A stretch of 64,000 bases of DNA, from the NCBI RefSeq assembly GCF_023217965.1, contig NZ_JALPSC010000002.1, positions 930,001 through 994,000 on the forward strand. The letters are read 5' to 3'. The notes below the pieces were generated by a model, which had not been told where the DNA came from, made no database searches, and saw nothing but the letters and a program-made list of their open reading frames with translations. The translations under genes and the position numbers were made by a program. This stretch comes from Prevotella sp. E13-27. GTDB lineage: Bacteria > Bacteroidota > Bacteroidia > Bacteroidales > Bacteroidaceae. Positions 30,357 to 60,546 of the stretch are shown here, piece by piece; positions within the stretch are counted from its first letter, which is position 1; every line of letters begins with the position of its first letter.

Positions 30357-31039
30357 ATGCCAAAGGAGCGTAACAAGGCAGACTCGTATCGCGAGAAGGC
30401 TTACGAAGGTGACACCAAGGCAATGAACAACCTTGGGGTCTGTTATGAGCGTGGCACTGGCGTAAAAGTCAATCTGGAGATTGCTTTTGAGTGGTACATG
30501 AAAGCCGCTGAGCAGGGCGATGTCTATGGATGCTTCAACGTTGGTGAGTGCTACTATCACGGCAAAGGCGTGGATCAGGATGTGGTGAAGGCATTCGAGT
30601 GGTACATGAAAGCTGCCGATAAAGGTGATATGCAGTCACAGGTCAATGTGGCCAATGCCTTCTATCTCGGCAATGGCACAGAGCAGGATCACCACAAAGC
30701 CTTCCTCTGGTATCGTGAGGCCGCTTTCCAAGGACATATACTTAGCCAAAAAAACGTCGGAGCCGCCTACTGGAATGGCGACGGTGTGGAGAAGAACTTG
30801 GAGGAATGCGGGTACCCTCCACGATGTTATCAACATCGCGGATTCCTCCCTTCTGGTATGAACTTGCCGCCAACGGCGGTGATGCCCAGGCACAATTCGC
30901 CACGGGCTGGTTTCTGATGACTGGCACAGGCGTTCCCAAGGATGAGCGCAAGGGGCTGAAGTGGATTCACAAGGCCACCTTTCAGGGATTCCAACCTGCT
31001 ATTGACTACTGTAAGGAGCATGGGTATAAGTGGTATTAA
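30357..31039 (+). pseudogene. Sel1-repeat (TPR-like) protein gene broken by a hairpin element
   Basis: The first 150 codons give about four Sel1 repeats (AMNNLGVCYERGTGVKVNLE, AFEWYMKAAEQGDVYGCFNV, GECYYHGKGVDQDVVKAFEW and so on). At 30811 a 41-base family 3 element shifts the frame and a stop follows at 30917. The natural C-terminus continues in another frame to 31039 (WYELAANGGDAQAQFATGWF, KGLKWIHKATFQGFQPAIDY). Removing the element and adjusting the joint would restore a single protein of about 215 residues. Sel1 proteins are protein-interaction scaffolds. A mosaic paralog is at 56113. Confidence 0.8.
30811..30851 (+). repeat. Family 3 hairpin element, copy A
   Basis: 41 bases: GGTACCCTCCA, stem CGATGTT-ATC-AACATCG, then CGGATTCCTCCCT. 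Same ends as copies at 53236 (inverse) and 60506, but different stem bases that still pair. Confidence 0.85.
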
Positions 31040-31057
31040 ATACAAAGAGAAATCAAA

Positions 31058-31636
31058 ATGACAATACAAGAATTTCGTGATTACATGGCATCGGGCAAAC
31101 CCGTCGTTGGCGGTGGTGATGTCCACATGATGTTCCATCAGCTGTCGCAGGAGGCACTGAAGATAACAGCAGAGATTAACGGCAAGTATCATACTCCAGA
31201 GCAGCTGCACGATTTGCTGGAACAGCTTTGGGGACGTGAAGTGCCCAAGACGGTAGGCATGTTTCCTCCGTTTCATACCGACTGCGGCAAGAACACCATC
31301 GTTGGTGAACGGGTCTTCATCAACATGGGTTGTAAGTTCCAGGATCAGGGCGGTATCACCATCGACGAGGGCGCTCTCATCGGTCACAACGTCGTGCTGG
31401 CAACCATCAATCACGACCTTGACCCGGCCAAGCGCCAGAGCATGAGCTATGCACCTATCCACATTGGCAAAAACGTATGGATTGGAGCCAATGCCACAGT
31501 TCTTGCAGGTGTGACTATTGGCGATGGAGCCGTAGTAGCAGCTGGTGCAGTAGTAACAAAGGACGTTGAACCGAATACGATTGTTGGTGGCGTTCCAGCC
31601 AAGGTGATAAAAAAGATAGAGATAAAAGACAGATAA
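31058..31636 (+). CDS. Hexapeptide-repeat acetyltransferase (copy 1 of 2)
   Basis: 192 residues, maltose/galactoside O-acetyltransferase type: [21 protein letters not shown] with catalytic His in [25 protein letters not shown] and [20 protein letters not shown]. It differs from the protein at 49501-50079 at four positions only, so the two genes are recent duplicates 18 kb apart. It follows the broken Sel1 gene by 18 bases, and its stop is part of a short TAAATTTA junction that runs into the next gene's ATG. Acetyl acceptor unknown. Confidence 0.9.
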
Positions 31637-31640
31637 ATTT

Positions 31641-34352
31641 ATGGAAAATAGCAAAATACAATTTTTGAAGAAAAACTACCTGCTGTTTATGGCTATGCTC
31701 GCTTTCACTCTGATAGTCCATGCACAGACAGCAAATGATAACCCTCGCGAACGTCTATGGCAAGCGTTTCTCACACCGCCCGACAGCATCCGCGTAGGAT
31801 GCTACTATTATTGGGTGAACGAGCAGGTGGATCCTAAAGGTGTTGTGGCCGACTTGGAGTGGATGAAGGAGAACGGCATTACCTTGGCATTCCTTGCCAC
31901 CGACATTCGCGACCGAACGACATGGGATAATCCTTGGGAGGGGCAGGCTTTCGGCAAGAACAAATTTCAGAGCCGCCTGTGGTGGAAGAATCTGCGTACG
32001 GCACTGAAAACAGCCGGTCGGCTGGGCATCGAGATGGGCTTGTTCAACTGTCCAGGATGGAGTCAGTCGGGTGGGCCATGGGTGAAGCCCGAGGAAGCTA
32101 TGCGCAACTGGACGTCCCATGGCATAGAAGTCTGTAAGACCAAAGAGGGCACCGACGTAATGTGCTCTCCCTGTTCGCCCGATGCACAGGGGCTGGAGGT
32201 CGATAAGCTGTCGAAGCACCACGTGCAGAAACACTTCGAGGCATTCATTGGTGAGATTCTGCGCCGTATTCCTCAGAAGGACCGCCCCACGCTGACCACC
32301 GTTGTTGTGGACAGTTGGGAACGTGGGAAGCAAAACTACACCGATTCTATCTTTTCAAAGTTCCGTCAGCGTTTCGGCTATGAGCTTGACTACACCAACC
32401 CCGCTTGTCAGAAGGATCTCGATCGGCTCATTGCCGACCTGGTAGCTTCAGAGTATATGGGCGGACTGACTGAGAAAGCCCATGAATATGGTCTGCGCAC
32501 TTGGTGTGAGCCCTACGCTCACAGCCCCTTCCCTGCCAACAGCATCACCTACGGCAGTGCAGCCGACGAGGTTGCTGCGGAATTTTGGGTGGACGATCGC
32601 AAATTCCGCCAGAAAGAGGTAGATGCAGCTCTCGGTTCCGCACGTCGCAGTGGCAAGAACAGAGTATGGGCTGAGAGTTTCACCGATGGTTGGCCTGAAC
32701 TGGCAAAGGATGACTGGAGCTTTGAGAAGCTAAAGCCCATAGCCGACCGCTACTTCCATGCAGGCATCAATGCAAGCATCCTTCATGTCATGATTTCGCA
32801 GCCAGGCAACGACCGCAAACCCGCTGTCCGCCCTTGGTTCGGCACCTACTTCGACCGTCGCAGCCAGCATGCATCCGACCTGAAGCCACTTGTTACCTAT
32901 CTTCGCCGCTGCAACTTCATGCTGCAGTTGGGCAAGCCGTTGGATGGTGCTAACGACCGTCGAATCCTGAACGATGGCACCAAGATTCGTTTCACCGAAG
33001 AATCATTCTTTGAAGTTACTTTCCCAGATGGTCGACAAGAATACTGGAATCCTGCCCAACCACAACCATCAGCCACAGCCATGCCTGAGCAATTGCAGTT
33101 TTCAAAGGCTATCGTGAGCGGTGTGAGTTGGTATGACCAGCATGGCGAGACTGTTTCGGCTCATGGTGCCAACATCATCCGAGACGGCGGGAAGTATTAT
33201 TTGTTTGGTGAATACAAAACTGACTCGGCCAATGTATTTAAAGGTTTCAGCTGCTATTCGTCAGATAATCTGACAGACTGGCATTTTGAGGGTATCGTCT
33301 TTGATCAACAACCCGATGGACGCATGGGACCCGATCGCGTGGGCGAACGTCCGAAAGTACTCCGTTGCCCTGCAACAGGCGAATATGTAATGCTCATGCA
33401 TACTGATAATCTGCAGTACAAAGACCCCTGTACCTGTTATGCTACGAGCCAAACTATTACTGGCCCTTATGAATTCCAGGGGCCGTTGCTCTACAAAGGA
33501 GAGCCTGTCAGGAAATGGGATATTGGCTCGTTTGCTGATGATGATGGGCATGCGTATCTCTTGGTGCATCATGGCATCATCTACCGTCTTGCCACTGACT
33601 TTCATTCGCTTGACTCATGTTTGATGAACGGTCTGAAAGGTGCTGGCGAGAGTCCCGCCATGCTGAAGAAAGATGGAACATACTACTGGCTTTCGAGTCA
33701 CACCACATCGTGGGAACGCAACGACAATATGTACTGGACTTCCAACTCTCTTTCCGGACCATGGGAGTATCGCGGTGAATTCTGTCCCAAGGGCTCGCTT
33801 ACATGGAATAGTCAATGCTCGTTCGTCCTGCCTCTGGAGAACGGTTCCTTTATGTATATGGGTGACCGCTGGTCCTTCCCCCGTCAGCGTAGTGCTGCTA
33901 CTTATGTTTGGCAACCTCTTACTATTGCTGACGGTAAATTGACTATTCCGCATTATTATGAAGCTTGGGACCCGTTGACAATGCAACAGGAAATTGTAAA
34001 TAGCAAAAAGCTACATGAGAAAAAATGGCAGTCGCAGGTCATTGGTGACAGTCTATCTATTCCTTACACGGGGCGTCGTATAGCACTCTATGGAACTACT
34101 GACAATATGAGTGGCTATGCAGATATCACTATCCGCGACCAAAGAGGACACAAGGTGTTTGGTGGCATCGTCGATTTTTACAGTCTTGTTCCTGCCACCG
34201 GTATCCGTTTTCTGTCTCCCATGTTGGCTAAAGGTAAATATACGCTGGAACTTCGTATTGCATCAATGAAGCCCAACTGGACTGACAAGCGTCGCAATCA
34301 GTACGGCAGTACAGGTCACAAGGTAGAGATTACCCATGTGATGATTGAGTGA
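31641..34352 (+). CDS. Secreted GH106-like / GH43 fusion glycosidase
   Basis: 903 residues. Signal peptide in residues 10-29 (LLFMAMLAFTLIVHAQ). Residues of about 30-450 match the first part of GH106-type alpha-L-rhamnosidases (PPDSIRVGCYYYWVNEQVDP, LGIEMGLFNCPGWSQSGGPW, LRTWCEPYAHSPFPANSIT). Residues of about 505-760 are a five-bladed GH43-like domain (NIIRDGGKYYLFGEYKTDS, GESPAMLKKDGTYYWLSSHT). A C-terminal beta-sandwich (VIGDSLSIPYTGRRIALYGT) is probably carbohydrate-binding. GH106 enzymes are usually about 1000 residues alone, so that part is truncated here. Plant or host glycan breakdown is expected. Confidence 0.85.
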   Translation: MENSKIQFLKKNYLLFMAMLAFTLIVHAQTANDNPRERLWQAFLTPPDSIRVGCYYYWVNEQVDPKGVVADLEWMKENGITLAFLATDIRDRTTWDNPWEGQAFGKNKFQSRLWWKNLRTALKTAGRLGIEMGLFNCPGWSQSGGPWVKPEEAMRNWTSHGIEVCKTKEGTDVMCSPCSPDAQGLEVDKLSKHHVQKHFEAFIGEILRRIPQKDRPTLTTVVVDSWERGKQNYTDSIFSKFRQRFGYELDYTNPACQKDLDRLIADLVASEYMGGLTEKAHEYGLRTWCEPYAHSPFPANSITYGSAADEVAAEFWVDDRKFRQKEVDAALGSARRSGKNRVWAESFTDGWPELAKDDWSFEKLKPIADRYFHAGINASILHVMISQPGNDRKPAVRPWFGTYFDRRSQHASDLKPLVTYLRRCNFMLQLGKPLDGANDRRILNDGTKIRFTEESFFEVTFPDGRQEYWNPAQPQPSATAMPEQLQFSKAIVSGVSWYDQHGETVSAHGANIIRDGGKYYLFGEYKTDSANVFKGFSCYSSDNLTDWHFEGIVFDQQPDGRMGPDRVGERPKVLRCPATGEYVMLMHTDNLQYKDPCTCYATSQTITGPYEFQGPLLYKGEPVRKWDIGSFADDDGHAYLLVHHGIIYRLATDFHSLDSCLMNGLKGAGESPAMLKKDGTYYWLSSHTTSWERNDNMYWTSNSLSGPWEYRGEFCPKGSLTWNSQCSFVLPLENGSFMYMGDRWSFPRQRSAATYVWQPLTIADGKLTIPHYYEAWDPLTMQQEIVNSKKLHEKKWQSQVIGDSLSIPYTGRRIALYGTTDNMSGYADITIRDQRGHKVFGGIVDFYSLVPATGIRFLSPMLAKGKYTLELRIASMKPNWTDKRRNQYGSTGHKVEITHVMIE

Positions 34353-34378
34353 TTAATGGAAGAGATAAATTTAGCGGT

Positions 34379-34519
34379 ATGATTACAATCAGGAAATACA
34401 GGGTACAAGACATAGTTCCTGCTATGGAAATCTGGAATGAAGTGGTACGTGACGGTATTGCCTTCCCTCAGGATGAAGAACTGGCGGGGCAAACGGTAAC
34501 AGAATATAAGAGAAGATGA
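34379..34519 (+). pseudogene. GNAT acetyltransferase, N-terminal fragment
   Basis: 46 residues: MITIRKYRVQDIVPAMEIWN, then EVVRDGIAFPQDEELAGQ. This is the start of a phosphinothricin-acetyltransferase-like GNAT (usual length about 165) without the acetyl-CoA motif. The frame ends in the ATGA overlap with the next gene, so the fragment's translation would feed ribosomes into the metallohydrolase gene. A TAAATTTA junction lies just upstream at 34366. Confidence 0.65.
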
Positions 34520-35604
34520 AGCGAAAGATGATATACAGCATTCTATTGGTAGTGGCTTTGCTGCTATGCTGGCAGGGTTACGAGTTCTGGGTGGCGGTTG
34601 GCCGTCAGCCGCGTGGAGAACGGTTGGAGCGGTGCAAACAGTCGCCGCAGTGGCGCGATGGTGAGTTTGTCAACGTGCATGAGACACCAACGCTGACGGG
34701 TGATGAGGGGTTCTTCGGTCAGATGTATAAGTTTCTGTTTGGCAAGGTGAAGAATCTGAGTCCTGACAGCAACGTACCAACGGCAAAGTCGTCGCTGAAG
34801 GACATTCCCCGCTCTGAAGAGGTTTGCGTCTGGCTCGGTCACTCCACGATCTTTATTCAGACAGGTGGCGTGCGCTTCCTCTTCGACCCTGTACTGACCA
34901 ACCGATTGCCTGTTTGGTGGTTCATGCGCCCGTTCAAAGGGGCTGATGTCTATACCGTCAATGACATTCCCGAAGTCGATTACCTCGTCATCACCCACGA
35001 CCACTGGGACCATCTCGACTGGAAAACCGTTACAGCTCTGAAAGATCGCGTCGGCCAGGTAGTCTGCGCCCTCGGCATCGGTGAGCACTTCGAGTATTGG
35101 GGCTACGACCCGCAGCGGATTCATGACCTCGACTGGCAGGACAGCATTGCCATCAACGATTCCATCACCCTCCGCTGTCTGCCTACCCGCCATTTCTCTG
35201 GCCGCATGGGACAGCACAAGACGCTCTGGGCTTCGTACCTCATTGACGGCCCGCGCCGCATCTTTGTCTCTGGTGACGGTGGCTACGATGAACGATTCAA
35301 GACGTTTGGCAAGCAATATCCAGACATCGACCTCGCCATCCTTGAAAACGGACAGTACGATGAGGGGTGGCGCCATATCCACACACTTCCCCGCGAACTG
35401 CCAACGGTCATCAGCGAACTCGGTGCCCGCCGGGTGCTGACCTACCACAACTCCAAATATGCCCTTGCCAACCACTCCTGGACGGAACCGCTCGACAGCA
35501 TCTATGCCCATGCACAGGGCAAGTCATGGCAGTTGCTCACCCCTCGGATCGGTGAACAGGTAAGACTAAATGAACAGCAGACATTCAGTAATTGGTGGAG
35601 GTGA
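34516..35604 (+). CDS. Membrane-anchored metallo-beta-lactamase-fold hydrolase (NAPE-PLD/UlaG-like)
   Basis: 362 residues with an N-terminal membrane helix (MIYSILLVVALLLCWQGY). The MBL metal site is THDHWDHLDW (HxHxDH), with a further His in PTRHFSGRMG and an Asp in VSGDGGYDERF. The HSTIFIQTGGVRFLFDPVL region is characteristic of the NAPE-PLD-like branch, which hydrolyses phosphodiesters or lactones. It starts inside the stop of the GNAT fragment. A hairpin terminator follows on the opposite strand. Confidence 0.88.
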   Translation: MKRKMIYSILLVVALLLCWQGYEFWVAVGRQPRGERLERCKQSPQWRDGEFVNVHETPTLTGDEGFFGQMYKFLFGKVKNLSPDSNVPTAKSSLKDIPRSEEVCVWLGHSTIFIQTGGVRFLFDPVLTNRLPVWWFMRPFKGADVYTVNDIPEVDYLVITHDHWDHLDWKTVTALKDRVGQVVCALGIGEHFEYWGYDPQRIHDLDWQDSIAINDSITLRCLPTRHFSGRMGQHKTLWASYLIDGPRRIFVSGDGGYDERFKTFGKQYPDIDLAILENGQYDEGWRHIHTLPRELPTVISELGARRVLTYHNSKYALANHSWTEPLDSIYAHAQGKSWQLLTPRIGEQVRLNEQQTFSNWWR

Positions 35605-35632
35605 GCGCTGGTGAATATCCGACTGGTCATAT

Positions 35633-35669
35633 AAAAAAGCCTTCCCGCCAACATTATGGCAAGGAAGGC
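35633..35669 (-). terminator. Terminator of the 36 kb minus-strand genes
   Basis: GCCTTCC (35639-35645) pairs with GGAAGGC (35663-35669), extended by GCC/GGC. On the minus strand the hairpin is followed by six T. It lies between convergent genes. Confidence 0.7.
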
Positions 35670-35686
35670 ATTCCCTATGTATTCGG

Positions 35687-36034
35687 TCATGACTTCGCTT
35701 TCCTATATTCCATGACAAGAGAGTTGAAACGTTCAGAAAACTCATCATGTTCACGGCACATCAGGTCAAACATCTCAGCACCGTCAAAGTGGCTGAGAGG
35801 TAGTCGTGGGGACAGTTTTGTCCCCTTCGAGCCCGCTCCGTCATAGTCTGCCGGAACGGGGAACTGACAGATGAGTGCATCGGCATCTTCCTCCTCCAGA
35901 TACTCGGTCAGCTCCAATTCAATGCCCATCCGTCGCTCATTATAACTCAGGTTCCAGATACATTCTCCCAGAACAGCATTAACCACCGTTCTGATTTCGT
36001 CCTGTGTGCGCCAGATGGAATCAAAGTCTTTCAT
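35687..36034 (-). CDS. Hypothetical protein, full-length version of 27572-27808
   Basis: 115 residues. An acidic soluble protein: DFDSIWRTQDEIRTVVNAVL, NLSYNERRMGIELELTEYLE, QFPVPADYDGAGSKGTKLSP, then a charged helical end (REHDEFSERFNSLVMEYRKA). Family not recognised. It overlaps the thioredoxin gene by four bases and was duplicated to 27572, where it lost its 3' part. Confidence 0.65.
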   Translation of the reverse strand: MKDFDSIWRTQDEIRTVVNAVLGECIWNLSYNERRMGIELELTEYLEEEDADALICQFPVPADYDGAGSKGTKLSPRLPLSHFDGAEMFDLMCREHDEFSERFNSLVMEYRKAKS

Positions 36035-36360
36035 TGTTCTGAGAGCTTTTGAAATCGGTTAATGTTGTATTTCAATTCCTCCAAGTCAATGAACTGAGAT
36101 CCACGATATACTTCCTTGCCATCCATCAGAAGCAATACCGTAGGGCCTGAATAGACTAGGAATCTACCTGCAATCAAAGGTTCTTCGGTGATATCTGTAT
36201 AGAAAGAAGTCAGAGACGGGTACTGACCTGCCAACCTCGCCACTTTGTCAAGCATGACATTGCAGACTCCGCAATCTGGAGCCTTGATGTAGAACAGACA
36301 TATGCCGTTATCCGTTATGGTCTGCTCTATATCTATTATGTTAGTCAGGTGCTTCATCAA
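36031..36360 (-). CDS. Thioredoxin-family protein
   Basis: 109 residues, one thioredoxin domain. The active site is CGVC in IKAPDCGVCNVMLDKVARL, and the cis-proline is in VYSGPTVLLLMDGKEVYRGS. It has no signal peptide, so it is a cytosolic disulfide reductase. CGVC differs from the usual CGPC, which should change its redox potential (inference). A junction palindrome lies ten bases upstream. Next in the minus-strand run is the hypothetical gene at 35687. Confidence 0.85.
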   Translation of the reverse strand: MMKHLTNIIDIEQTITDNGICLFYIKAPDCGVCNVMLDKVARLAGQYPSLTSFYTDITEEPLIAGRFLVYSGPTVLLLMDGKEVYRGSQFIDLEELKYNINRFQKLSEQ

Positions 36361-36369
36361 TTCTTACCG

Positions 36370-36383
36370 TAAATTCGGATTTA
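36370..36383 (-). repeat. Junction palindrome, copy 2
   Basis: Minus strand TAAATCCGAATTTA, preceded by AGA and followed by CGG, like the copy at 50077 (AGATAAATCGGAATTTATGG). It lies between the GNAT and thioredoxin genes. Confidence 0.6.
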
Positions 36384-36434
36384 TCTAATGCGTCTCCATT
36401 TTTGAGAACAGGTTGATTATTATAACGCCAGCTT

Positions 36435-37040: not shown

Positions 37041-37083
37041 TTCTATTATTGCCTCATGCTTTATTAAGTTATGTAATACTCTG

Positions 37084-37097
37084 AAAATTGGAATTTA
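37084..37097 (-). repeat. Junction palindrome, copy 3
   Basis: Minus strand TAAATTCCAATTTT. Its TAA is the in-frame final stop of the remnant upstream (37095-37277). Confidence 0.55.
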
Positions 37098-37277: not shown

Positions 37278-37380
37278 ATTTCATTTAAACGAATTTATTT
37301 ATCTCATTAAAATCTTTATTTGAATCTTTTGAAATCAGATATCTCCATATCGATGACAAAAGTCATTAATGGTTCCAATG

Positions 37381-43973: not shown

Positions 43974-44567
43974 ATGAAGAGTTTTAAGTCAACAGCGTGG
44001 ATTCTTCCACAACCCGTGCTGATTATCGGCACTTATGATAAGAACGGTAAGCCCAATGCAATGAACGCAGCTTGGGGAGGTCAATGGGATATGCACGAAA
44101 TCATTATCTCGCTCGGCTCTCATGCTACAACTGACAACCTTGCTGAAAACCCTGAATTTACGGTTGCTTTCGCTACTAAAGATACCATGATAGCTTCTGA
44201 CTATGTGGGTATCGTTAGCGGCAGGAACACACCAGATAAGATGGAAAAAGCTGGCTTGACTGTAGAGAAGGCTCCTAATGTGAATGCCCCTGTATTCAAA
44301 GAGTTCCCTATGACGTTGGAATGTCGGGTGAAACAGAAGATTGACGAGAGCGAGACAGGCTATTATCTCGTTGCTGAAATTGTCAACATCCTCTGTGATG
44401 AAAAGTACCTGGCAGAAGATGGCAAGCCTGATGTGGAGAAAATGGAGCTTATCACCTTCGACCCGGTACATCACACTTACATTCAGTTAGGAAAGACTGT
44501 TGGTAATGCTTTCTCTGATGGCAAACAGTTCTTGGACGAGCCAAGCGGCAAAGCCGAGTGGAAATGA
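43974..44567 (+). CDS. Flavin reductase-like FMN-binding protein
   Basis: 197 residues. Split-barrel of the flavin reductase family: STAWILPQPVLIIGTYDKNG, NAMNAAWGGQWDMHEIIISL, LAENPEFTVAFATKDTM. Binds FMN and passes reducing power or flavin to partner enzymes. The last residues PSGKAEWK arise from a short palindrome (44543-44561) also found in the broken gene at 60376, so the original tail may have been replaced. It overlaps the PLD gene by ATGA. Confidence 0.88.
   Translation: MKSFKSTAWILPQPVLIIGTYDKNGKPNAMNAAWGGQWDMHEIIISLGSHATTDNLAENPEFTVAFATKDTMIASDYVGIVSGRNTPDKMEKAGLTVEKAPNVNAPVFKEFPMTLECRVKQKIDESETGYYLVAEIVNILCDEKYLAEDGKPDVEKMELITFDPVHHTYIQLGKTVGNAFSDGKQFLDEPSGKAEWK
44543..44561 (+). 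repeat. Short family 2-like palindrome at the flavin reductase 3' end
   Basis: AAGCGGCAAAGCCGAGTGG. The first 16 bases are identical to those at 60465-60480 in an unrelated gene. Confidence 0.6.
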
Positions 44568-52409: not shown

Positions 52410-53486
52410 ATGAATCCTGTTGCCATCAGACTTCTCAACCAGCAGCTCATCGCTCCACAGTTCAGTACACCTACTGAGGTGGTCAGCTACATGGGTGCCA
52501 TGCAGGCACAGGAGTATCGTATGATGCGCTGGGCTGTGGCAATGCGCACGCGCAAACCTTCATTCAAGGCTTTCAAGAAAGCTTTTGATGAGGGACTGAT
52601 TATCCGTCTGCACCTGATGAGAGGCACTTGGCAGTTGGTATCTGCTGAAGATTACTGGTCTATGATAGACCTATTTGCTCCAAAAGCAATTGCCGTCACG
52701 AAGGGATGGATGAGCAGCAATAGAATAACCATACCCGATGAAGAACTGATGCGTGTCAGAGATATTCTCGTTCGGACAGCAGCAGGCAAAAGGAGTGTGA
52801 CAAAAGATGATTTCGTTCTGGCGTTGGCAGAAAAAGGTTTGAAGATGGACGACCATCGCCTGTCTTATCATATCCGCATGGCAGAAATGGCAGGCATCCT
52901 TTGTAGTGGAGATTTGTTACCGCTCAAAGCCACCTACGCGCTAACATCAGATAAGATAAAGTCATCCGCAAAGATGGACAGAGACGAGGCGTTGGCTTAC
53001 TTTACTCATAAGTACTTCCAGAGTCGCCAACCAGCTACACTGGAGGATTTTGTATGGTGGTCAGGACTCAACATCAGCGACTGTAGAAAAGGCATTGCAC
53101 TCCTTGGCAACGGCATTCACATGGAGAAGTGGAAAGGCAGGGAGTTATATCTGACCGAAGAATGCCGCATAAGGGGATTCCGAAAAGGCAAGTTCCTCCT
53201 GATTCCTCCATACGATGAATACCTCATCAGTTATAAGGGAGGGGCCCAGAAACTACCGAGTGTTTCTGGGAGGGGCACCCGTGACATCGTACTGCCTCCA
53301 GAACACAGGCATCGTGCCCATAATAATAACGGAATTTTTCAGCCAATAATAGCTTACGACGGAACGGTATGTGGTAATTGGTCACCTTTTAAAGAGAACT
53401 TACAAGCATCCTTCTTTGAAGAAAACTTTGAATTTGTTGATGTAAGTGAAGCTTGGCAATCATACAGTAGTTATCGGAATAAATAA
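52410..53486 (+). CDS. Winged-helix AlkZ-like protein with an in-frame hairpin element
   Basis: 358 residues of the winged-helix DNA-binding family that includes the DNA glycosylase AlkZ: MNPVAIRLLNQQLIAPQFST, YMGAMQAQEYRMMRWAVAMR, GLIIRLHLMRGTWQLVSAED (the H-R region of the HTH-42 domain), TLEDFVWWSGLNISDCRKGI. It lacks a clear AlkZ catalytic QxQ. GAMQAQE may take its place. Near residue 275, GGAQKLPSVSGRGT interrupts the conserved DEYLISYK...RDIVLPPEHR and is a translated family 3 element. Confidence 0.85.
   Translation: MNPVAIRLLNQQLIAPQFSTPTEVVSYMGAMQAQEYRMMRWAVAMRTRKPSFKAFKKAFDEGLIIRLHLMRGTWQLVSAEDYWSMIDLFAPKAIAVTKGWMSSNRITIPDEELMRVRDILVRTAAGKRSVTKDDFVLALAEKGLKMDDHRLSYHIRMAEMAGILCSGDLLPLKATYALTSDKIKSSAKMDRDEALAYFTHKYFQSRQPATLEDFVWWSGLNISDCRKGIALLGNGIHMEKWKGRELYLTEECRIRGFRKGKFLLIPPYDEYLISYKGGAQKLPSVSGRGTRDIVLPPEHRHRAHNNNGIFQPIIAYDGTVCGNWSPFKENLQASFFEENFEFVDVSEAWQSYSSYRNK
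53236..53280 (-). repeat. Family 3 hairpin element, copy B (in frame)
   Basis: Plus strand AGGGAGGGGC, stem CCAGAAAC and GTTTCTGG, then GAGGGGCACCC: the reverse orientation of copies A and C with the same ends but a different, self-complementary stem. About 42-45 bases, keeping the host frame. Confidence 0.75.
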
Positions 53487-53496
53487 AAAATGCAGT

Positions 53497-53925
53497 ATGA
53501 ACATAGAAGACTATCGCGAGTATTGCCTGTCATTAGGCGAAGACATTGAAGAAAAACTTCCTTTCCAGAAGTTCAAGAACGGAGAGGGGGTATTGGTGTT
53601 CTACGTGATGGGACATATGTTCTCATTCTTCGATTGCAATGACTTCTCTGTCATATCACTGAAATGCCAGCCTGAGCGCATCGAAGACCTGAAGGCACAA
53701 TACAAGTGCATCGGCAATCCGTATAACGAATCGCCCAAGCATTGGATAGGCATCAACCCCTTGACTGCCCCTGATGACCTGCTAAAGGAACTGACCCGAA
53801 ACTCTTTTGAGATTGTAAAGATTAAATATGCGAGTAAGCGAGAGCAGAAACAAACTCGTTTGGATTCTGCCGAGCGTGAGCATATTCAACCGAAGGTTAA
53901 ATATACGAAAACGAAGAAGATATAA
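53497..53925 (+). CDS. MmcQ/YjbR-family protein with a family 2 element in its tail
   Basis: 142 residues from MNIEDYREYCLSLGEDIEEK. The core matches the gene at 60376 (VFYVMGHMFSFFDCNDFSVI, GNPYNESPKHWIGIN). The paralog ends IVKAKYTKK; here the end is IVKIKYA, then SKREQKQTRLDSAEREHIQP from the element, then KVKYTKTKKI, so 22 or more residues were added in frame near the C-terminus. Function of the family is unknown. Confidence 0.85.
   Translation: MNIEDYREYCLSLGEDIEEKLPFQKFKNGEGVLVFYVMGHMFSFFDCNDFSVISLKCQPERIEDLKAQYKCIGNPYNESPKHWIGINPLTAPDDLLKELTRNSFEIVKIKYASKREQKQTRLDSAEREHIQPKVKYTKTKKI
53838..53880 (+). repeat. Family 2 hairpin element, type copy
   Basis: GCGAGAGCAGAAACAAACTC then GTTTGGATTCTGCCGAGCGT. 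GCAGA pairs with TCTGC and CAAAC with GTTTG. Confidence 0.85.
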
Positions 53926-53944
53926 TTCTAAAACCACAAAAATT

Positions 53945-54601
53945 ATGAAAGCATTATTTATCAACGGAAGTCCGCGTAAGAACGGCAACACGGCACAGCT
54001 GCTGAAGCGTGCCATGGATGGTGCCAGAGAGTCTGGTGCTGAGGTGGAACTGGTGAACCTCTACGACCGCAACCTGAACTACAAAGGTTGCATGTCGTGT
54101 TTCGCCTGCAAACTGAAGGGAGGCAAGAAGGGTGTCTGCTCTTTCAAGGACGACCTGCAGCCCATACTCCAGAAGGCTGTGGAGGCCGACGTACTGGTGT
54201 GCGGTTCGCCCAACTATTGTGGCTACCCCTCAGCAGCACTACGTGCCTTTATGGAGCGAATGGAGTTTCCCGCTGTCAACTACTCCGACTATTCCAAGCC
54301 CGTCATACTGAAGCGCATCTGTTCGGCCACCATCTATACGATGAACTGCCCTAATGAAGAAGTATATCGTCAGATGATCTATCATATCCTGATGGACGCC
54401 TCTGCCCAGCAACTCGGTGTGTTCGGCCCTACGAAAGTACTATGCTCCTACGACACATATCAGTTCCCGAACTACGACCGCTACGATGCCGCCACTTTCA
54501 GCGAGGTTCACAAGGAAGAGGTACGCGACACGCAATTCCCCATCGACCTCGAAAAAGCCTTCGAACTGGGCAAGCGACTGGTGGCAAAGGCCAAGGAATA
54601 A
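53945..54601 (+). CDS. NADPH-dependent FMN reductase (flavodoxin fold)
   Basis: 218 residues from MKALFINGSPRKNGNTAQLL. The FMN phosphate loop is NGSPRKNGNT, with CGSPNYCGYPSAALRAFMER in the second loop. A four-Cys patch (GCMSCFACKLKGGKKGVCSF) is typical of the iron-sulfur flavoprotein-like group and could hold a cluster or disulfide. The C-terminus RDTQFPIDLEKAFELGKRL also survives as a remnant at 10247. Reduces FMN, quinones or nitro compounds. Confidence 0.9.
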   Translation: MKALFINGSPRKNGNTAQLLKRAMDGARESGAEVELVNLYDRNLNYKGCMSCFACKLKGGKKGVCSFKDDLQPILQKAVEADVLVCGSPNYCGYPSAALRAFMERMEFPAVNYSDYSKPVILKRICSATIYTMNCPNEEVYRQMIYHILMDASAQQLGVFGPTKVLCSYDTYQFPNYDRYDAATFSEVHKEEVRDTQFPIDLEKAFELGKRLVAKAKE

Positions 54602-54627
54602 CATACTAAAACAAAGAAGAAATAATC

Positions 54628-55332
54628 ATGTACAGTTTGAATTATAAAGTAACGACAAGTACCTGCGACAGCGAAAGAAAACTGAAACTCTATTCAGCTC
54701 TCCAGATGATGCAGGACTGCTCAGAGATGTGGATCGACAGCGAGCCGGAAGTCAAGGACTACTTCTTGCAGCAGAATATGGCGCAGCTGTTAGCTACACG
54801 CCAGGTTGAGGTTATCCGTGTGCCTGACTACAAAGAGGAACTGACGGTGACAACCTCCGTCTATGGCATGAAGCCAATGTTCGGATTCCGCAATACGTTC
54901 ATCTACGACGCACAGGGAAATCCCTGCTACAAGACATGGAGCATGGGAGCGTTCGTTGACAAGGTGGCTGGCAAACTGAAGCGTGTGGACGATGCGACCA
55001 TACAATCAATGAAGCTGGAGCCGCAGCTGGAGATGAACTACAAAGACCGCCGCATCATCCTGCCAAAGACGGAAGGTGAAGTGCTGGAGCCGATTAAGGT
55101 GCTTCGTGCCGACATCGATTACAACAAGCATCTGAACAATGCCAACTATGTCCGCATGGCGATGGAACTGTTGCCGGAGGATTTTGTGGTAAGCGGCTTA
55201 CGGGTAGAATATCGGGTAGCAGCCAAGCTTGGCGATTGTCTGACTCCTACTATTTACAAAACAGCTGACGGTATCATCATTTCCCTGTCTATAGGGAGTG
55301 AGGTGAGTGCCATCATTGAGTTCAATAAATGA
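54628..55332 (+). CDS. Acyl-ACP thioesterase
   Basis: 234 residues, two hotdog domains of the acyl-ACP thioesterase (FatA/FatB-like) family: KLYSALQMMQDCSEMWIDSE in the first, and the catalytic region DIDYNKHLNNANYVRMAMEL in the second (Asp, Asn, His), followed by GLRVEYRVAAKLGD. It releases fatty acids from ACP and so sets chain length. The second domain is also present in the chimera at 28248. Another thioesterase of the family is at 57192. Confidence 0.9.
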   Translation: MYSLNYKVTTSTCDSERKLKLYSALQMMQDCSEMWIDSEPEVKDYFLQQNMAQLLATRQVEVIRVPDYKEELTVTTSVYGMKPMFGFRNTFIYDAQGNPCYKTWSMGAFVDKVAGKLKRVDDATIQSMKLEPQLEMNYKDRRIILPKTEGEVLEPIKVLRADIDYNKHLNNANYVRMAMELLPEDFVVSGLRVEYRVAAKLGDCLTPTIYKTADGIIISLSIGSEVSAIIEFNK

Positions 55333-55347
55333 CACAGTAATTCGATT

Positions 55348-56085
55348 ATGAAGATAAAAAACATCATGCTTATGGCAGCAGTAGCAACAGCAACTCTGAC
55401 GGGTTGCGGTAGTAGAGAAAATAAGGTGGAGACAACCGACTTTGTGGACGACGTAAAGGTGGCACTTGCCGATAGCGGGCGCATAGACTTGAATGCTTTG
55501 CAATGGACGAGGGAGCCTAAAGCCTTTGAGGTCAAAGGTGATACCATAGCCATCACTACCGCTCCGCACACCGACCTATGGCAGCGCACGTACTATCACT
55601 TCCAGAACGACAATGCGCCCGTGCTACAGATGAAGACAAAGGAAAAATTCTTCAGTTTCGTGGTGAAGACCGACTTCACGCAGAGCCACCAGCGCTTCGA
55701 CCAATGCGGCATCGTGATGTATCTGGATAGCGAGAACTGGCTGAAAGGTTCTGTGGAATATGAGAACGACGAGTTCCAGCACTTAGGCAGCGTAGCCACC
55801 AACAAGGGCTATTCTGATTGGGCTACGACGGCTATCCCTGCCGATGTCAAGACCATGTGGTACCGTTTCTCGCGCCGAGAGGATGACTACTGCATCGAAT
55901 GTTCTACCGATGGCGAGAATTTCAGTCATATGCGCATCTGTCACATGTATGCTGCTGCCGACGAAATCAGTTTCGGCATATATGCCTGTTCGCCAGAGGA
56001 ATCATCATTCACCGCCCTCTTTTCAGACATGAAGATTACCGAGTGTGTTTGGAAGGCTCACGACGGTCAGCAGCCGGACTTGTAA
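55348..56085 (+). CDS. DUF1349 lipoprotein (concanavalin-like fold)
   Basis: 245 residues. The signal ends TATLTGCGSR (lipobox). The DUF1349 fold is seen in TTAPHTDLWQRTYYHFQNDN, FSFVVKTDFTQSHQRFDQCG, IVMYLDSENWLKGSVEYEND and FGIYACSPEESSFTALFSDM. This group has a laminarinase-like jelly roll and may bind sugars. It follows the thioesterase by 15 bases and its stop lies in a junction palindrome. Confidence 0.88.
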   Translation: MKIKNIMLMAAVATATLTGCGSRENKVETTDFVDDVKVALADSGRIDLNALQWTREPKAFEVKGDTIAITTAPHTDLWQRTYYHFQNDNAPVLQMKTKEKFFSFVVKTDFTQSHQRFDQCGIVMYLDSENWLKGSVEYENDEFQHLGSVATNKGYSDWATTAIPADVKTMWYRFSRREDDYCIECSTDGENFSHMRICHMYAAADEISFGIYACSPEESSFTALFSDMKITECVWKAHDGQQPDL

Positions 56086-56096
56086 ATTCTAATTTA
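56083..56096 (+). repeat. Junction palindrome, copy 7
   Basis: TAAATTCTAATTTA, beginning with the stop of the DUF1349 gene and followed by TCAG, as in the related AATTTATCAG before the other Sel1 gene at 30310. Confidence 0.7.
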
Positions 56097-56112
56097 TCAG
56101 TCTAAGAATCAT

Positions 56113-56538
56113 ATGCCCAAGGAACGTAACAAGGCTGATGGCTATCGTGAGAAGGTACCGATTAAGCGAGAGAAAATTGATGCATGCATCGACTCTTCCG
56201 AGCGTGAGGTGTCTCGACCAAAGGTCAAGGCTTACAAGGGTAACACCAAGGCGATGAACAGAATGTTTGCCCCTATGGCTTACGCCGCTTCCCCGATTAA
56301 CGGGGATGCTCAAAGGTATGAGCTGGCGGCCAATGGCGGTGATGCTCAGGCACAGTTCGCCACAGGCTGGTTCTTGCGTCCCTTCGGTAGCAAGCGAGCA
56401 GAGCTCGAGCGTCTGATGACTGGCACAGGCGTTCCCAAGGATGAGCGCAAAGGGCTGAAATGGATTCACAAGGCAACGTTTCAGGGATTCCAGCCCGCCA
56501 TCGACTACTGCAAGGAACAGGGGTATAAGTGGTATTAA
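56113..56538 (+). CDS. Sel1-type protein rebuilt as a mosaic of host segments and palindromic elements
   Basis: 141 residues, open throughout. It starts and ends like the gene at 30357 (MPKERNKADGYREK; KGLKWIHKATFQGFQPAIDY) but is interrupted three times: IKREKIDACIDSSEREVSRP is a family 2 hairpin; FAPMAYAASPINGDAQR holds a CCCCG-ATTAA-CGGGG palindrome and replaces about 120 residues of Sel1 repeats; RPFGSKRAELERL is a 39-base family 2-like insertion. Only about one Sel1 repeat remains, so scaffold function is doubtful even though the frame is intact. Confidence 0.75.
   Translation: MPKERNKADGYREKVPIKREKIDACIDSSEREVSRPKVKAYKGNTKAMNRMFAPMAYAASPINGDAQRYELAANGGDAQAQFATGWFLRPFGSKRAELERLMTGTGVPKDERKGLKWIHKATFQGFQPAIDYCKEQGYKWY
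56166..56208 (+). repeat. Family 2 hairpin element
   Basis: GCGAGAGAAAATTGATGCAT then GCATCGACTCTTCCGAGCGT. The inner arm ATGCATGCAT differs from other copies but is still palindromic. Translated in frame. Confidence 0.75.
56290..56306 (+). repeat. Small CCCCG/CGGGG palindrome in the Sel1 mosaic
   Basis: TCCCCG, ATTAA, CGGGGA. Located where most Sel1 repeats are missing relative to the paralog. Confidence 0.6.
56377..56415 (+). repeat. 39-base in-frame insertion with an AAGCGAG...CTCGAGCG palindrome
   Basis: Splits the sequence TTTCTG/ATGACTGGCACAGG that is continuous in the paralog at 30917. It contains AAGCGAGCAGAGCTCGAGCG, and 39 bases is a multiple of three. Confidence 0.75.
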
Positions 56539-56567
56539 CGAAAAGAACAAAACTAACAAATACGATT

Positions 56568-57188
56568 ATGAAAGTATTACTATTAAACGGAAGTGCCAAC
56601 AAGAAAGGCAACACGTTTACAGCACTCACTGAGATTGCCAACAAATTAGAGAAAAATGGTGTAGAGGCAGAAATCATCCAGCTGGGCAACAAGCCCGTCC
56701 GTGGCTGTATTGCCTGCGGACAGTGCCGGATGAAACGACTGGGACATTGTGTCTTTGATGATGACATCTGCAACCGTATCGTAGAGAAACTTAACGAGGC
56801 TGATGCACTCATCGTTGGCTCGCCCGTCTATTACGGTCAGCCCAACGGAGCGGTGATGGTCGTGCTCCAGCGTGCCTTCTTCTCGGGTGCCAAGGTTCAG
56901 GACAAGCCTGCGGCAGCAGTTGCCGTTTGTCGCCGTGGTGGTGCTTCGGCTGCCTACCAGACACTGAACTTGATGTTCGAGATGATGAACATGCCCATCG
57001 TGACCTCACAATACTGGAACATCGCCTACGGCATGGCTCCAGGCGAAGTGACACAGGACACCGAGGGTATGCAGACCATGCGCACATTGGCCGACAACAT
57101 GGCATGGCTGCTGAAGAAGATCCACGCCGATGATCAGCCTGACTATCCTGAGCGTGAACCATGGCAGGGCATGAACTTTATCAGATAA
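56568..57188 (+). CDS. NADPH-dependent FMN reductase (flavodoxin fold)
   Basis: 206 residues from MKVLLLNGSANKKGNTFTAL; the longer frame begins inside the Sel1 gene. FMN loop NGSANKKGNT, four-Cys region CIACGQCRMKRLGHCVFDDD, and GSPVYYGQPNGAVMVVLQRA. Related to the FMN reductase at 53945 but a distinct subgroup (multimeric flavodoxin WrbA-like). Cytosolic reductant of flavins or quinones. Three bases separate it from the thioesterase gene downstream. Confidence 0.9.
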   Translation: MKVLLLNGSANKKGNTFTALTEIANKLEKNGVEAEIIQLGNKPVRGCIACGQCRMKRLGHCVFDDDICNRIVEKLNEADALIVGSPVYYGQPNGAVMVVLQRAFFSGAKVQDKPAAAVAVCRRGGASAAYQTLNLMFEMMNMPIVTSQYWNIAYGMAPGEVTQDTEGMQTMRTLADNMAWLLKKIHADDQPDYPEREPWQGMNFIR

Positions 57189-57191
57189 AGA

Positions 57192-58013
57192 ATGATTACA
57201 AACGGAAAATACAGACATACCTACACAGCCACGGCATCGGACATCACGCCTTTGTACAGACTAACGCCGAATGTCATGCTGATGTACTTCCAGGACAGTT
57301 TCGCCCGGCTGATGACCATCCACCATGTGGCTGCCTTCGACATCGTGAAGCAGCATCGTATGTGGGTCATCACGGAGGTGCAGATGGACATACGACCGAC
57401 GGTTACATACTGGTCGGAGGATTTCACGGTGGAGATATGGGTGAGCGAACTTACTTCACTCCGCATCTACTGCGATTTCCGCATTGTCCGTAAGGATCGC
57501 TCGACCTCAGGTCGCTTGCAAGGCAAGAACGAGCAGTTAATAGCCTCTGGCACAAGTCGGTGGAACATCCTCAATCTCGACACCAAGCGATTGGAAACAA
57601 CCGATTTCCTTGTCGATAAGCTGACAGTGGTGCCTGAACTGATGACTGCCAGTCATAAGAAAGTGCGGTTCCCCAAACCGCAGTCGTTCGACATGCAGAT
57701 GGGGCATCGGGCAACACGTCTTGACCTTGATTTTAATTTCCACGTCAGCAACCGCAGCTATGTCACTATTGCCCTGTTGACCATGCCCGACGAAGTGCTG
57801 GCTTCGCAGACGTTGACATCCGTCATCGTCCACTGGCTGCATGAGACCTATCTTGATGAAACTCTAACTTGCCACATGTCTCACATAGATGATGGTAGTT
57901 ACCTCCATACGCTTACGAATGCGGAGGACATAGTGGTCTGTGAACTTATGAGCAGATGGCAGCAACAGCCTGCAATACCAGAAGTCAGCGAAGTGCTGAA
58001 CAGGCATTTATAA
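57192..58013 (+). CDS. Acyl-ACP thioesterase-like protein
   Basis: 273 residues, two hotdog domains: LTPNVMLMYFQDSFARLMTI, DIRPTVTYWSEDFTVEIWVS, and the second domain MGHRATRLDLDFNFHVSNRS with the catalytic region D.DFN.HVSNRSY. The segment KDRSTSGRLQGKNEQLIASG near residue 100 looks longer than expected and contains an inverse family 2-like palindrome (57498-57517). It is divergent in sequence from the thioesterase at 54628. Acyl-thioester hydrolysis is expected. Confidence 0.85.
   Translation: MITNGKYRHTYTATASDITPLYRLTPNVMLMYFQDSFARLMTIHHVAAFDIVKQHRMWVITEVQMDIRPTVTYWSEDFTVEIWVSELTSLRIYCDFRIVRKDRSTSGRLQGKNEQLIASGTSRWNILNLDTKRLETTDFLVDKLTVVPELMTASHKKVRFPKPQSFDMQMGHRATRLDLDFNFHVSNRSYVTIALLTMPDEVLASQTLTSVIVHWLHETYLDETLTCHMSHIDDGSYLHTLTNAEDIVVCELMSRWQQQPAIPEVSEVLNRHL
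57498..57517 (-). repeat. Family 2-like palindrome inside the thioesterase gene
   Basis: CGCTCGACCTCAGGTCGCTT; the inverse reads AAGCGACCTGAGGTCGAGCG, closely like AAGCGAGCAGAGCTCGAGCG at 56392. Translated in frame. Confidence 0.6.
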
Positions 58014-58117
58014 AATGCTAATAGATAAGTCGGATTTTCGCAAACAAGAAGTAAAGTCAATAATTTGAAAGGTCTTGGCAGAGACCAGTGCCTCGTCACG
58101 AAACACTCCAAAAAAAT
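58014..58117 (+). other. Short gap with a degenerate junction motif
   Basis: AGATAAGTCGGATTTTCG at 58023-58040 resembles AGATAAATCGGAATTTATGG at 50074, though it is not at a stop codon. No gene or -7 box was recognised. Confidence 0.4.
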
Positions 58118-59059
58118 ATGAAGAAAGTAATGTTTTTATTGGCAGTAGGTGTGATGTGCCTGACAGCCTGCGCTCAGAAAAAGGGTGGCGAACGTGGTAC
58201 TCGCCAAGGTGGCCGCATGGTGATTAACAAAGATTCTGACAGCGTTTTCGTGGCATTGAAACAGGAAGCACTGGGCAAGTTCAAGCAACTGACGTTCAAC
58301 GATGAACTGACAGGCAAGACGATGGAGTATAATCTGCTGATTCCCGAAGGTGCAGAGGCAGGTCAGAAACTCCCCTTAGTGCTCTTCATGGCTGATGCCA
58401 GTACTGCAGGAAAGGAAGTGACGGCTCCGCTCACTCAGGGCTATGGAGCATTGGAGTTCGCCTCAGACAGGGATCAGAAAGAGCATCCTTCATTCGTCCT
58501 GGTTCCCCAATACACGGAATGGGCGGTGCAGGATGACTGGAGCACCACTGACGAGGTAGAAATGACCATCCGACTGCTTCAGACCCTCTGCAAGGAATAC
58601 AATGTAGATACCAACCGTCTATACACCACAGGTCAGTCAATGGGTGGCATGATGTCGTTCTACTTCAACATCACCCATCCCGACCTCTTTGCCGCCTCGC
58701 TCTTCGTCAGTAGCCAGTGGGACACTTCGAAAATGCAGGACTTCGGCAAGAAGCATTTCTTCTACGTCGTAGCTGGTGGCGACCAGAAGGCATCGGGTGG
58801 CATGAGAGACCTGGCAAAGGTGCTGAAGGAGAATGATGCCCGTGTTGACTCTGCATCATGGAGTGCAAAATTGCCGTCTGCGGAACAAGAGAAGTTGGCA
58901 GAAAAACTGATTGCCCGTGACGGCAATATCAACTTCATCCGTTGGGAGGCAGGAAGCGTACTCCCCGAATCGGGCAAGGGCATGGAGCACATGGCATCCT
59001 TCGACTATGGATATAAGATTGCCGCAGTTCGCGACTGGCTGTTCAAACAGAGTAAATAG
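58118..59059 (+). CDS. Exported alpha/beta hydrolase (PHB-depolymerase/esterase-like)
   Basis: 313 residues. The lipoprotein-type signal ends VMCLTACAQ. Alpha/beta-hydrolase core: YNLLIPEGAEAGQKLPLVLF, then the nucleophile elbow TGQSMGGMMS (GxSxG), preceded by YNVDTNRLY. A His near HMASFDYGY is the likely catalytic base. Such proteins cleave esters of feruloyl or acetyl groups on plant polysaccharides or polyesters. Located outside the cytoplasm. Confidence 0.87.
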   Translation: MKKVMFLLAVGVMCLTACAQKKGGERGTRQGGRMVINKDSDSVFVALKQEALGKFKQLTFNDELTGKTMEYNLLIPEGAEAGQKLPLVLFMADASTAGKEVTAPLTQGYGALEFASDRDQKEHPSFVLVPQYTEWAVQDDWSTTDEVEMTIRLLQTLCKEYNVDTNRLYTTGQSMGGMMSFYFNITHPDLFAASLFVSSQWDTSKMQDFGKKHFFYVVAGGDQKASGGMRDLAKVLKENDARVDSASWSAKLPSAEQEKLAEKLIARDGNINFIRWEAGSVLPESGKGMEHMASFDYGYKIAAVRDWLFKQSK

Positions 59060-59083
59060 ACTTTGACAAATCCAAACCGACAA

Positions 59084-60379
59084 ATGAAAAGATTATATAT
59101 TGAGCGTTTCTACTTGAATAGGGCCGATGACGAGTACCCTATGACAGTGCGCATCATTCTGCAGATGAAGGATGATGTGGATAGGCATCTGTTCGAGGAA
59201 GCAGTTGCAGCAGCGCAGACGAGATACCCTTACCTGTGTGTCAAACTTGGTGTCGAACGCGATGCTGACGGCAGCGAGCACTATGTCTATCACGACAATC
59301 CACAGCCTTGGAAAGTCTCGGGCTGTCGTCAGCCGGTATGCTTGTGCAGTGAAGAAGCCAATGAGCATCTGATGGCATTCGCGTGGTGGGACGATTGCGT
59401 GGCATTGGATTTCTTTCATGCGCTCATCGACGGGACTGCCGCCTATCGCATCCTCCGGACATTGCTCTATGAATACTGCCGGCGACGCTACGATAGTGAG
59501 TTAGACAATACAGGAGTCTGGGTGGCAGGTGACATCATCGACGAGGCAAAATGGACTGATCCTGCCACACTGCCAAGACCAACGAGCATCCACCCGCAGC
59601 AGCTGCCTGAACGTCCTAAGGTTATCAATCTGGCCACCGATGCCATCGTACCCCTTGCTGATAAGAAAGAAGTGGTACAGATACGCATCTCTGAGGAGCA
59701 GATGATGAAGCGTGTGCGGGCATGCGGTGCCACGCCTACTTCTTTCCTAACCCTGCTTCTGGCAAGAGCCATCGCCAGTCTGCATCCAGAGAGTGCGCCT
59801 CTGGCACCAACCGTTACAGTAGCAGTTGATTTGAGAAAGACACTCGGAACCACTGCGGCACACCATTCACAAGTAGGCGGACTGTTCCTGCCACTGGGGC
59901 AAGATATGCAGCAGGCGGACTTTGATACTCAGATAGCAGCTTTCCGCAAGATGATAGCCGAGCAGACTTATCCAGACAACCTGCAAGACTATTTCTGGCA
60001 GACCCAAGACCGGATGGAAAGGGTGGAACAACTGCCCACGCTTCAAGCCCGCTATCAGGCCTTTGCTCCAACAAACCAACTGAGCCAGCAGTACGGTTCA
60101 TGCATGTTCAGCTATGTAGGGAAGGCTGGTCTTGGTGCTGCCGAACAATATATCAGGGAGATGCGCACAGAGACCGACTCTGCCTATATGATTGTGGTGG
60201 AAGTAAGTGCTGCCGCAGGTGTTTTCAGCATCAGTTTCATGCAGCGTTTTGCAACCGATGTATATCTTGATACGTTCCTCGACGAGCTGCATCAGCAGGG
60301 GCTGACTTACGAGATTCCAGACCGTCATCCGCTACAGATAGCCCCCATTGCCGATTATCGAAATACTAAGCAGAAATGA
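59084..60379 (+). CDS. Condensation-domain-like acyltransferase
   Basis: 431 residues. The catalytic motif HALIDGTAAYRILRTLLYEY fits HxxxDG of condensation/alcohol acetyltransferase/WS-DGAT enzymes. N-terminal subdomain (MTVRIILQMKDDVDRHLFEE, AVAAAQTRYPYLCVKLG) and C-terminal half (PTVTVAVDLRKTLGTTAAHH, DFG-like QYGSCMFSYVGKAGLGA) follow the chloramphenicol acetyltransferase-type fold. It joins an acyl group from CoA or carrier to an alcohol or amine. No carrier-protein gene is nearby. It overlaps the next gene by ATGA. Confidence 0.8.
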   Translation: MKRLYIERFYLNRADDEYPMTVRIILQMKDDVDRHLFEEAVAAAQTRYPYLCVKLGVERDADGSEHYVYHDNPQPWKVSGCRQPVCLCSEEANEHLMAFAWWDDCVALDFFHALIDGTAAYRILRTLLYEYCRRRYDSELDNTGVWVAGDIIDEAKWTDPATLPRPTSIHPQQLPERPKVINLATDAIVPLADKKEVVQIRISEEQMMKRVRACGATPTSFLTLLLARAIASLHPESAPLAPTVTVAVDLRKTLGTTAAHHSQVGGLFLPLGQDMQQADFDTQIAAFRKMIAEQTYPDNLQDYFWQTQDRMERVEQLPTLQARYQAFAPTNQLSQQYGSCMFSYVGKAGLGAAEQYIREMRTETDSAYMIVVEVSAAAGVFSISFMQRFATDVYLDTFLDELHQQGLTYEIPDRHPLQIAPIADYRNTKQK

Positions 60380-60464
60380 ACATAGAAGACTATCGCGAGT
60401 ATTGCCTGTCATTGGGCGAAGACATTGAGGAGAAGCTTCCTTTCCAGAAATTCTTTGCAAAGCA

Positions 60465-60482
60465 AAGCGGCAAAGCCGAGCG
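60465..60482 (+). repeat. Short family 2-like palindrome
   Basis: AAGCGGCAAAGCCGAGCG, sharing 16 bases with 44543-44558 in the flavin reductase gene. Confidence 0.65.
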
Positions 60483-60505
60483 CAAAAGTGGCGAAGGAGT
60501 ATTGG

Positions 60506-60546
60506 GGTACCCTCCACGAGATTATCAATCTCGCGGATTCCTCCCT
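60506..60546 (+). repeat. Family 3 hairpin element, copy C
   Basis: GGTACCCTCCA, stem CGAGATT-ATC-AATCTCG, CGGATTCCTCCCT. It differs from copy A only in the two stem dinucleotides, which change together and keep pairing. Confidence 0.9.

Follow-up and report, generated by a model that had tools for sequence, protein, structure and literature searches.

The question raised by this locus is how a short hairpin came to lie within three genes of different families, and whether it is protein sequence, a by-product of gene shuffling, or an element that moves. The locus lies in a 64,000-nt stretch of the genome of Prevotella sp. E13-27, hereafter called the window. The original prediction placed three copies in it, A, B (inverse) and C, and all were confirmed at the positions it gave, as was an empty paralog of the gene that carries copy C (Table 1). 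The hairpin probably represents a genus-restricted family of non-autonomous mobile elements, and we read it as a new and very small member of the wide group of palindromic, non-autonomous elements found inserted in protein genes. The window gave no Rfam match above the gathering score and, by this measure, holds no known RNA family. In a literature search of titles and abstract beginnings, with most subscription papers outside its scope, we recognised no such element in Prevotella. Among the host names used below, Sel1, YjbR, DUF1294, DUF4112 and LGT are Pfam matches of hosts or their relatives, and PF06224 is a precomputed assignment of AlkZ-like homologs. The names Hsp20, carbonic anhydrase, integrase, XRE, NifJ and IstA are presumed from motifs, and no Pfam match was obtained for the integrase N-terminus, for the remnant of the carbonic-anhydrase type, or for the fragments resembling IstA and NifJ.

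Table 1. Hairpin copies, their host genes and related features in the window, with the further first-family copies (D to H) of the E13-27 genome.
Feature	Position in window	Strand	Description
Host ORF of copy A (Sel1 repeats)	30357..30914	+	PF08238; ends at frame-shifted stop
Copy A	30811..30851	+	Hairpin element in Sel1-repeat gene; G-rich strand antisense to gene
Second-family double hairpin	44529..44560	+	Near two-ORF junction
Copy B host gene	52410..53486	+	PF06224 (AlkZ-like), 358 aa
Copy B	53236..53280	-	Divergent element in AlkZ-like gene, whose sense strand is the G-rich strand
Empty-site paralog of copy C host	53497..53922	+	PF04237 (YjbR)
Second-family double hairpin	57498..57527	-	Inside ORF 57192-58013
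Copy C host	60376..60639	+	YjbR-family; 5' part as far as frame-shifted stop
Second-family copy in copy C's gene	60453..60482	+	30-nt in-frame insertion after TT
Copy C	60506..60546	+	Element in YjbR-family gene; G-rich strand antisense to gene
Copy D			Duplicate of copy C's gene
Copy E			Edge of truncated gene
Copy F			Carbonic-anhydrase-like remnant
Copy G			DUF1294 remnant
Copy H			DUF4112 gene

The element is ~39-43 nt long and, on its G-rich strand, has the layout AA^GGGAGG-hairpin-GGAGGGTACC^, in which a covarying stem of ~9-11 bp is flanked by two ends, GGGAGG and GGAGGGTACC, that are fixed and unpaired. The distance from AAG to ACC varies, mostly from 40 to 46 nt, so the effect on the reading frame depends on the copy. 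As the original prediction had stated, copies A and C differ in paired positions only. Across the eight copies of the E13-27 genome, 96.3% of 80 stem cells are paired and both sides change in 5 of 10 pairs, against 29-49% pairing when partners are slid. An alignment of 33 distinct rows from more genomes gave 91.0% of 321 cells paired (at most 53.3% in the slid control) and changes on both sides in 7 of 10 pairs; none of 500 shuffles reached the observed paired fraction or covariation score, with the caveat that this alignment was fitted to the model, includes doubtful rows, and draws on related sequences, whose kinship inflates covariation scores. The count of further pair types did not exceed that of shuffles in either covariation test (8 copies; 33 rows). 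The proposed compensatory stem changes are thereby borne out beyond both the slid and the shuffled controls.

The strand that folds is probably the G-rich one. At one position of the stem a G-T wobble is found on the G-rich strand in 45 of 69 readable unique elements and the reverse in none, the others having a Watson-Crick pair (9) or another combination (15); on the opposite strand the wobble would be an internal A-C mismatch. This count covers the 69 of 99 unique elements that were readable with a fixed pattern, and it concerns a single position in related sequences, so that its p-value is no true probability. At the other modelled pairs of the stem, a census favoured neither strand (21 GU versus 33 AC). 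Predicted DNA folding of the G-rich strand is exceptional for copy A (z -5.3; 0 of 200 shuffles as good) and copy C (z -4.3; 1 of 200), and weaker for the divergent copy B (z -2.0, 8 of 200, on the G-rich strand; z -2.6, 3 of 200, on the other). It is from the wobble and from the DNA folding of A and C that we take the G-rich strand as the likely folding strand. RNA folding energy, lower on this strand in 82 of 98 unique elements, was not relied on because G-rich strands fold better anyway.

The AlkZ-like host of copy B allows a direct comparison with homologs. Copy B is in frame there, as originally proposed, and adds exactly 13 residues between K and S of YKSRDIV, the encoded peptide being KGGAQKLPSVSGRGT. 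Homologs have 345 aa in 82 of the 120 listed, and the host protein has 358 aa. Besides the host, 5 of 24 aligned homologs, down to 76% identity, have the insert (one in diverged form, and one of the five being shortened elsewhere); the other 19 read YK(S/G/T)RD without it. A structure prediction for the host protein was unusable (mean pLDDT 47). The idea that nothing more than normal coding sequence or a chance resemblance is involved, favoured by the segments being open in frame in several hosts, is hardly credible given the 19 homologs that lack the 13 residues, the occurrence of identical nucleotides in different frames and on both strands, and the compensatory stem changes. It was rejected on the basis of these homologs and of the empty relatives described below, and the prospect that orthologs would all have the segment as normal protein sequence was not realised.

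Junction-spanning empty relatives, found by aligning the joined flanks to other fetched DNA, exist for 19 site clusters (the doubtful locus L051 is still counted among them). Together with the AlkZ-like homologs, these relatives that lack the segment bear out the empty sites that had been proposed. In place of AAG...ACC the empty sites have four host bases in 16 of the 19 clusters, five in two and three in one. The four bases are typically AAGA, with AACA, AAAA, AAAC, CAGA and a few others also found; the target contains AA. In the commonest case the AA is kept, two host bases are lost and 40-41 nt are gained. No target duplication was seen at the 19 clusters. The replaced bases are deduced from diverged relatives that are 72-96% identical, and not from isogenic pairs. 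In the window, the native site of the YjbR paralog reads GTAGAA CA CCAATAC on the opposite strand. Copy A has an empty relative at L227, while L060 is filled at the same site with another stem. Copies A and C each add a net 38 nt and shift the frame, so that only B of the three keeps it; the native frame of the copy A host is picked up again downstream at 30851. Nested and tandem copies also occur (L144 and L108).

The E13-27 genome (3.96 Mb) contains eight copies, all within 60 kb (G000:C2:960811-1020836), according to R1, a covariance model built from these eight copies after a loose pattern search. The loose pattern is unspecific by itself (12 matches versus 19 with a reversed control), and specificity comes from the added hairpin and covariance model. 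With R1 at E <= 10, where 150 of 588 first-look candidates were scored, the genome yielded only these eight. A rough formula puts the chance of eight uniformly placed copies falling in such a span at ~1e-12, or 8e-11 for seven, copies C and D being located in duplicated genes. The surrounding region, G000:C2 950-1022 kb (from 20 kb in the window to past its end), contains many duplicated and fragmented genes, including three copies each of Hsp20-like and Sel1-like genes and several that are YjbR-like. Elsewhere, an integrase-like promoter, leader and 5' part with the element recur at L053, L096-L104 and L132, and the downstream sequences differ.

Many further copies were expected beyond this genome, and the searches found them. 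A second model, R2, trained on an alignment that includes the doubtful rows L044 and L050 (the latter resembling what we take to be a normal signal peptidase sequence), matched 92 of 398 same-genus genomes at E <= 0.01, E13-27 included, with 1-8 copies per carrier. The R2 search scored 16 first-look candidates per genome, and absence in a genome is for that reason no proof. Among 100 relatives, E13-27 and 17 of 59 other same-genus genomes matched; outside the genus a single genome of 40 did so, weakly (E 0.2) and probably by chance. In named genomes 86 stretches fit a strict pattern. The 80 of these that were listed bear the names Prevotella, Prevotellaceae, Bacteroidaceae or Bacteroidales in 78 cases; of the remaining two, one belongs to 'bacterium P3' and the other to an Actinotalea, probably by chance. 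Record titles put many of the strict-pattern matches in ruminant gut samples. The 137 matches collected, which leave out seven weak R2 places (E 0.0017-0.0094), fall into 64 flank clusters, a clustering that merges a few unrelated sites. Eight doubtful loci with one match each (L044, L050, L051, L119, L121, L122, L141 and L148) were excluded from the frame count, the fold test, the wobble count and the divergence test.

Instead of transposition of the element itself, the copies could owe their spread mainly to gene conversion among them and to recombination of fragments of host genes. The same filled site is found in host genes of different genomes, 5' segments with the element have been joined to a variety of downstream sequences, the 60-kb region contains duplicated gene fragments, and copy A and L060 share a site with different stem variants. 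We nevertheless regard this origin as unlikely, since the 137 matches are spread over 64 flank clusters, divergence drops inside the element relative to its flanks, and copies are nested, all of which suggests insertion of the element itself.

This drop in divergence bears on the mobile-hairpin reading as well. In 21 of the 23 clusters with a shared site, divergence within the element is lower than in its 90-nt flanks; this does not hold at the Sel1 site shared by A and L060, nor at that of L026. The test used only pairs with flanks aligning at <= 40% difference and is biased toward recognisable elements, so low divergence may in part reflect detection. In XRE-type, Hsp20-like and DUF1294 genes, one and the same position is occupied by distinct variants. 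There are two ways to read this: the element returns to preferred sites, or it stays conserved in place. It might be a selected, site-returning element that arrives at the same sites in different species without flanking DNA, or be kept in place as an mRNA hairpin that ribosomes skip or recode even in frame-broken genes. We hold this to be improbable; it would explain the low divergence in 21 of 23 clusters, the same-position variants, and the codon selection seen in frame-shifted XRE-type and integrase-like genes.

Reading frames were assigned by ORF length, with one member per cluster; single assignments are fallible, and the XRE cluster was assigned to the wrong strand. By this rule 45 of the 64 clusters are coding, and 27 of these 45 are in frame versus an expected one third (p 2e-4). 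Other in-frame copies include L153, in an LGT gene, and L034, in one that is Hsp20-like. A diverged first-family variant at L041, L136, L137 and L150-L152 is in frame directly behind MNK (or NEQ/NK), where what look like signal peptides begin. Several frame-shifted copies are in damaged genes. Copy H contains a stop in the native frame, L028 has further disruptions, an IstA-like region (L209) has three first-family copies and one second-family copy, and a NifJ-like gene (L112) has two first-family copies and two that are second-family-like.

Some frame-shifted hosts nonetheless look selected, and the overall outcome of the codon analysis was mixed. In five XRE-type genes with a 45-nt subtype, in which the element differs by only 6%, pN/pS downstream is 0.20 in the native frame versus 0.83 and 1.19 in the other frames (pS 0.34), and 0.09 versus 5.34 and 0.59 over 14 upstream codons. 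Synonymous differences in these genes amount to 42-49% over the 30 codons that follow downstream, 21-24% beyond them, and 27% upstream. Downstream of a frame-shifting copy, three integrase-like genes gave a pN/pS of 0.04 across 290 codons, and an in-frame control of three sequences gave 0.08. Such values speak for the element being tolerated out of frame through ribosome skipping or recoding, as in T4 gene 60 or the mitochondrial byps, and a 29-nt translational hop is reported for an adhesin gene of Prevotella loescheii (PMC5009743). That hop might be an insertion of the same general kind. Against skipping, the native frame is disrupted in 3 of 8 copies of the XRE subtype (L126 by TGA, L145 by TAG, L130 by fusion to another gene), copy H has its stop, and L028 its further disruptions. 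At L053 a small upstream deletion breaks the first frame, so that the integrase, if made, would start downstream. At L103 and L132 a second insert restores the frame over the retained part, which would be unnecessary under bypass, and copies of 41/44 nt would need another shift than those of 42/45 nt. Selection on the frame-shifted hosts may also be older than the insertion, and insertion after gene divergence would equally explain the data. Judged from sequence, skipping or recoding of frame-shifting copies is possible but in our judgement very unlikely. If it were true, this would be a rare bacterial case. Short blocks that interrupt genes and shift the frame are also known as the byps in mitochondria of Magnusiomyces and as the gap in T4 gene 60 (PMC5009743). 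The Prevotella element resembles them in these two respects, and differs in that several of its frame-shifted hosts are decaying.

The mobile-hairpin reading remains the one we favour. An element of this size has no room for a transposase, in agreement with the original prediction, and we infer movement in trans. A putative trans-acting enzyme would recognise the folded G-rich single strand and its ends, copy or cut the element, and insert it beside AA; selection would afterwards retain in-frame copies in functional genes, and several frame-shifting copies would remain in duplicated or decaying genes. Weighing against this reading are the low copy number of 1-8 per genome, the lack of a mobilising gene in the search described next, and the lower divergence of the element than of its flanks at 21 of 23 shared sites, for which insertions that are simply old give no explanation.

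The partner enzyme had been suggested to be a RAYT or IS200/IS605-like protein. Mobilisation as a REP-like sequence by such an HUH tyrosine transposase would agree with a hairpin with unpaired ends, a short and fixed target, and the lack of a target duplication. PF01797 was found in 58 of 92 carriers versus 139 of 306 non-carriers (odds ratio 2.05, p 0.004), an association in raw counts in which genome size and completeness also vary. It was not found in 34 of the 92 carriers, among them the copy-rich G027 and G032, and the element ends lack a GTAG or CGTC tag. Among the places listed for the 398 same-genus genomes, no linked PF01797 transposase was found near elements: gene and element share a contig only twice, ~350 kb apart in E13-27 and ~30 kb apart in G157. 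In all, 197 of the same 398 genomes had a match, 185 of them above the curated cut-off; many of these genomes are incomplete and some PF01797 genes may be missed. The suggested partner was not supported, PF01797 not having been found in every carrier; we give mobilisation by this route a low probability.

Compared to known systems, the element combines familiar features in an unfamiliar way. Rickettsia palindromic elements (RPE) are 105-146 bp long with 12-bp terminal inverted repeats (PMC2229807). Like RPE, the Prevotella element is a folded, non-autonomous palindrome found in frame in many unrelated protein genes; unlike them, it is ~39-43 nt long, its ends GGGAGG and GGTACC form no inverted repeat, and its confident matches are in Prevotella and relatives. 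It shares with REP sequences the size class, the single hairpin, the loop and stem variants and the presence of some copies inside ORFs, as described in PMC3733652, which also presents CGTC REP repeats as being without a known transposase. It differs from REP sequences in lacking a GTAG/CGTC end tag and, where these are of high copy and mainly extragenic, in having 1-8 copies per carrier and 45 of 64 clusters coding; in contrast to RAYT-linked REP sequences, a transposase link was not found (PF01797, 398 genomes). MITEs are likewise short, non-autonomous and at times fused in frame, whereas the Prevotella element has no terminal inverted repeat or visible target duplication and replaces target bases. 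A non-autonomous element of the IS200/IS605 type would have a subterminal hairpin and would insert, without duplication, beside a short fixed target; in the Prevotella element an AA target and no duplication were seen, but host bases are replaced. The question of how palindromic inserts move, which is open in Rickettsia, where in-frame cases are best known, would become testable in a system with a small element, empty sites, a defined target, length variants, compensatory stem changes and common rumen bacteria as hosts. The element also illustrates how, in a simple way, proteins come to acquire short peptides, here of ~13 residues.

A second family, TT^CTTGC..GCAAG-CGACC..GGTCG-AGCG^, forms a double hairpin of ~30 nt with compensatory variants in both stems, and enters after TT with no visible loss in YjbR and Hsp20-like hosts. 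The E13-27 genome has 49 model matches at E <= 0.001, some within genes, and relatives have up to 56 per genome at E <= 0.01. Among 30 copies inspected in E13-27, many share one repeated context, which looks intergenic from its sequence. Of 40 genomes from other genera, 19 gave matches, but these are weak (best E 2e-6), and 29 of the matches are in G088. At L144 (1501-1572) a second-family copy is nested in the loop of a first-family element, and at L268 (1501-1562) one is located inside another second-family copy. A third short hairpin, GAAAGCTGGTGCTCACCGCTTTC, is present at G000:C2:1019720-1019742, 1018690-1018712 and 1649743-1649765, with a compensatory variant, and one copy is in frame in a remnant that we take to be carbonic-anhydrase-like.
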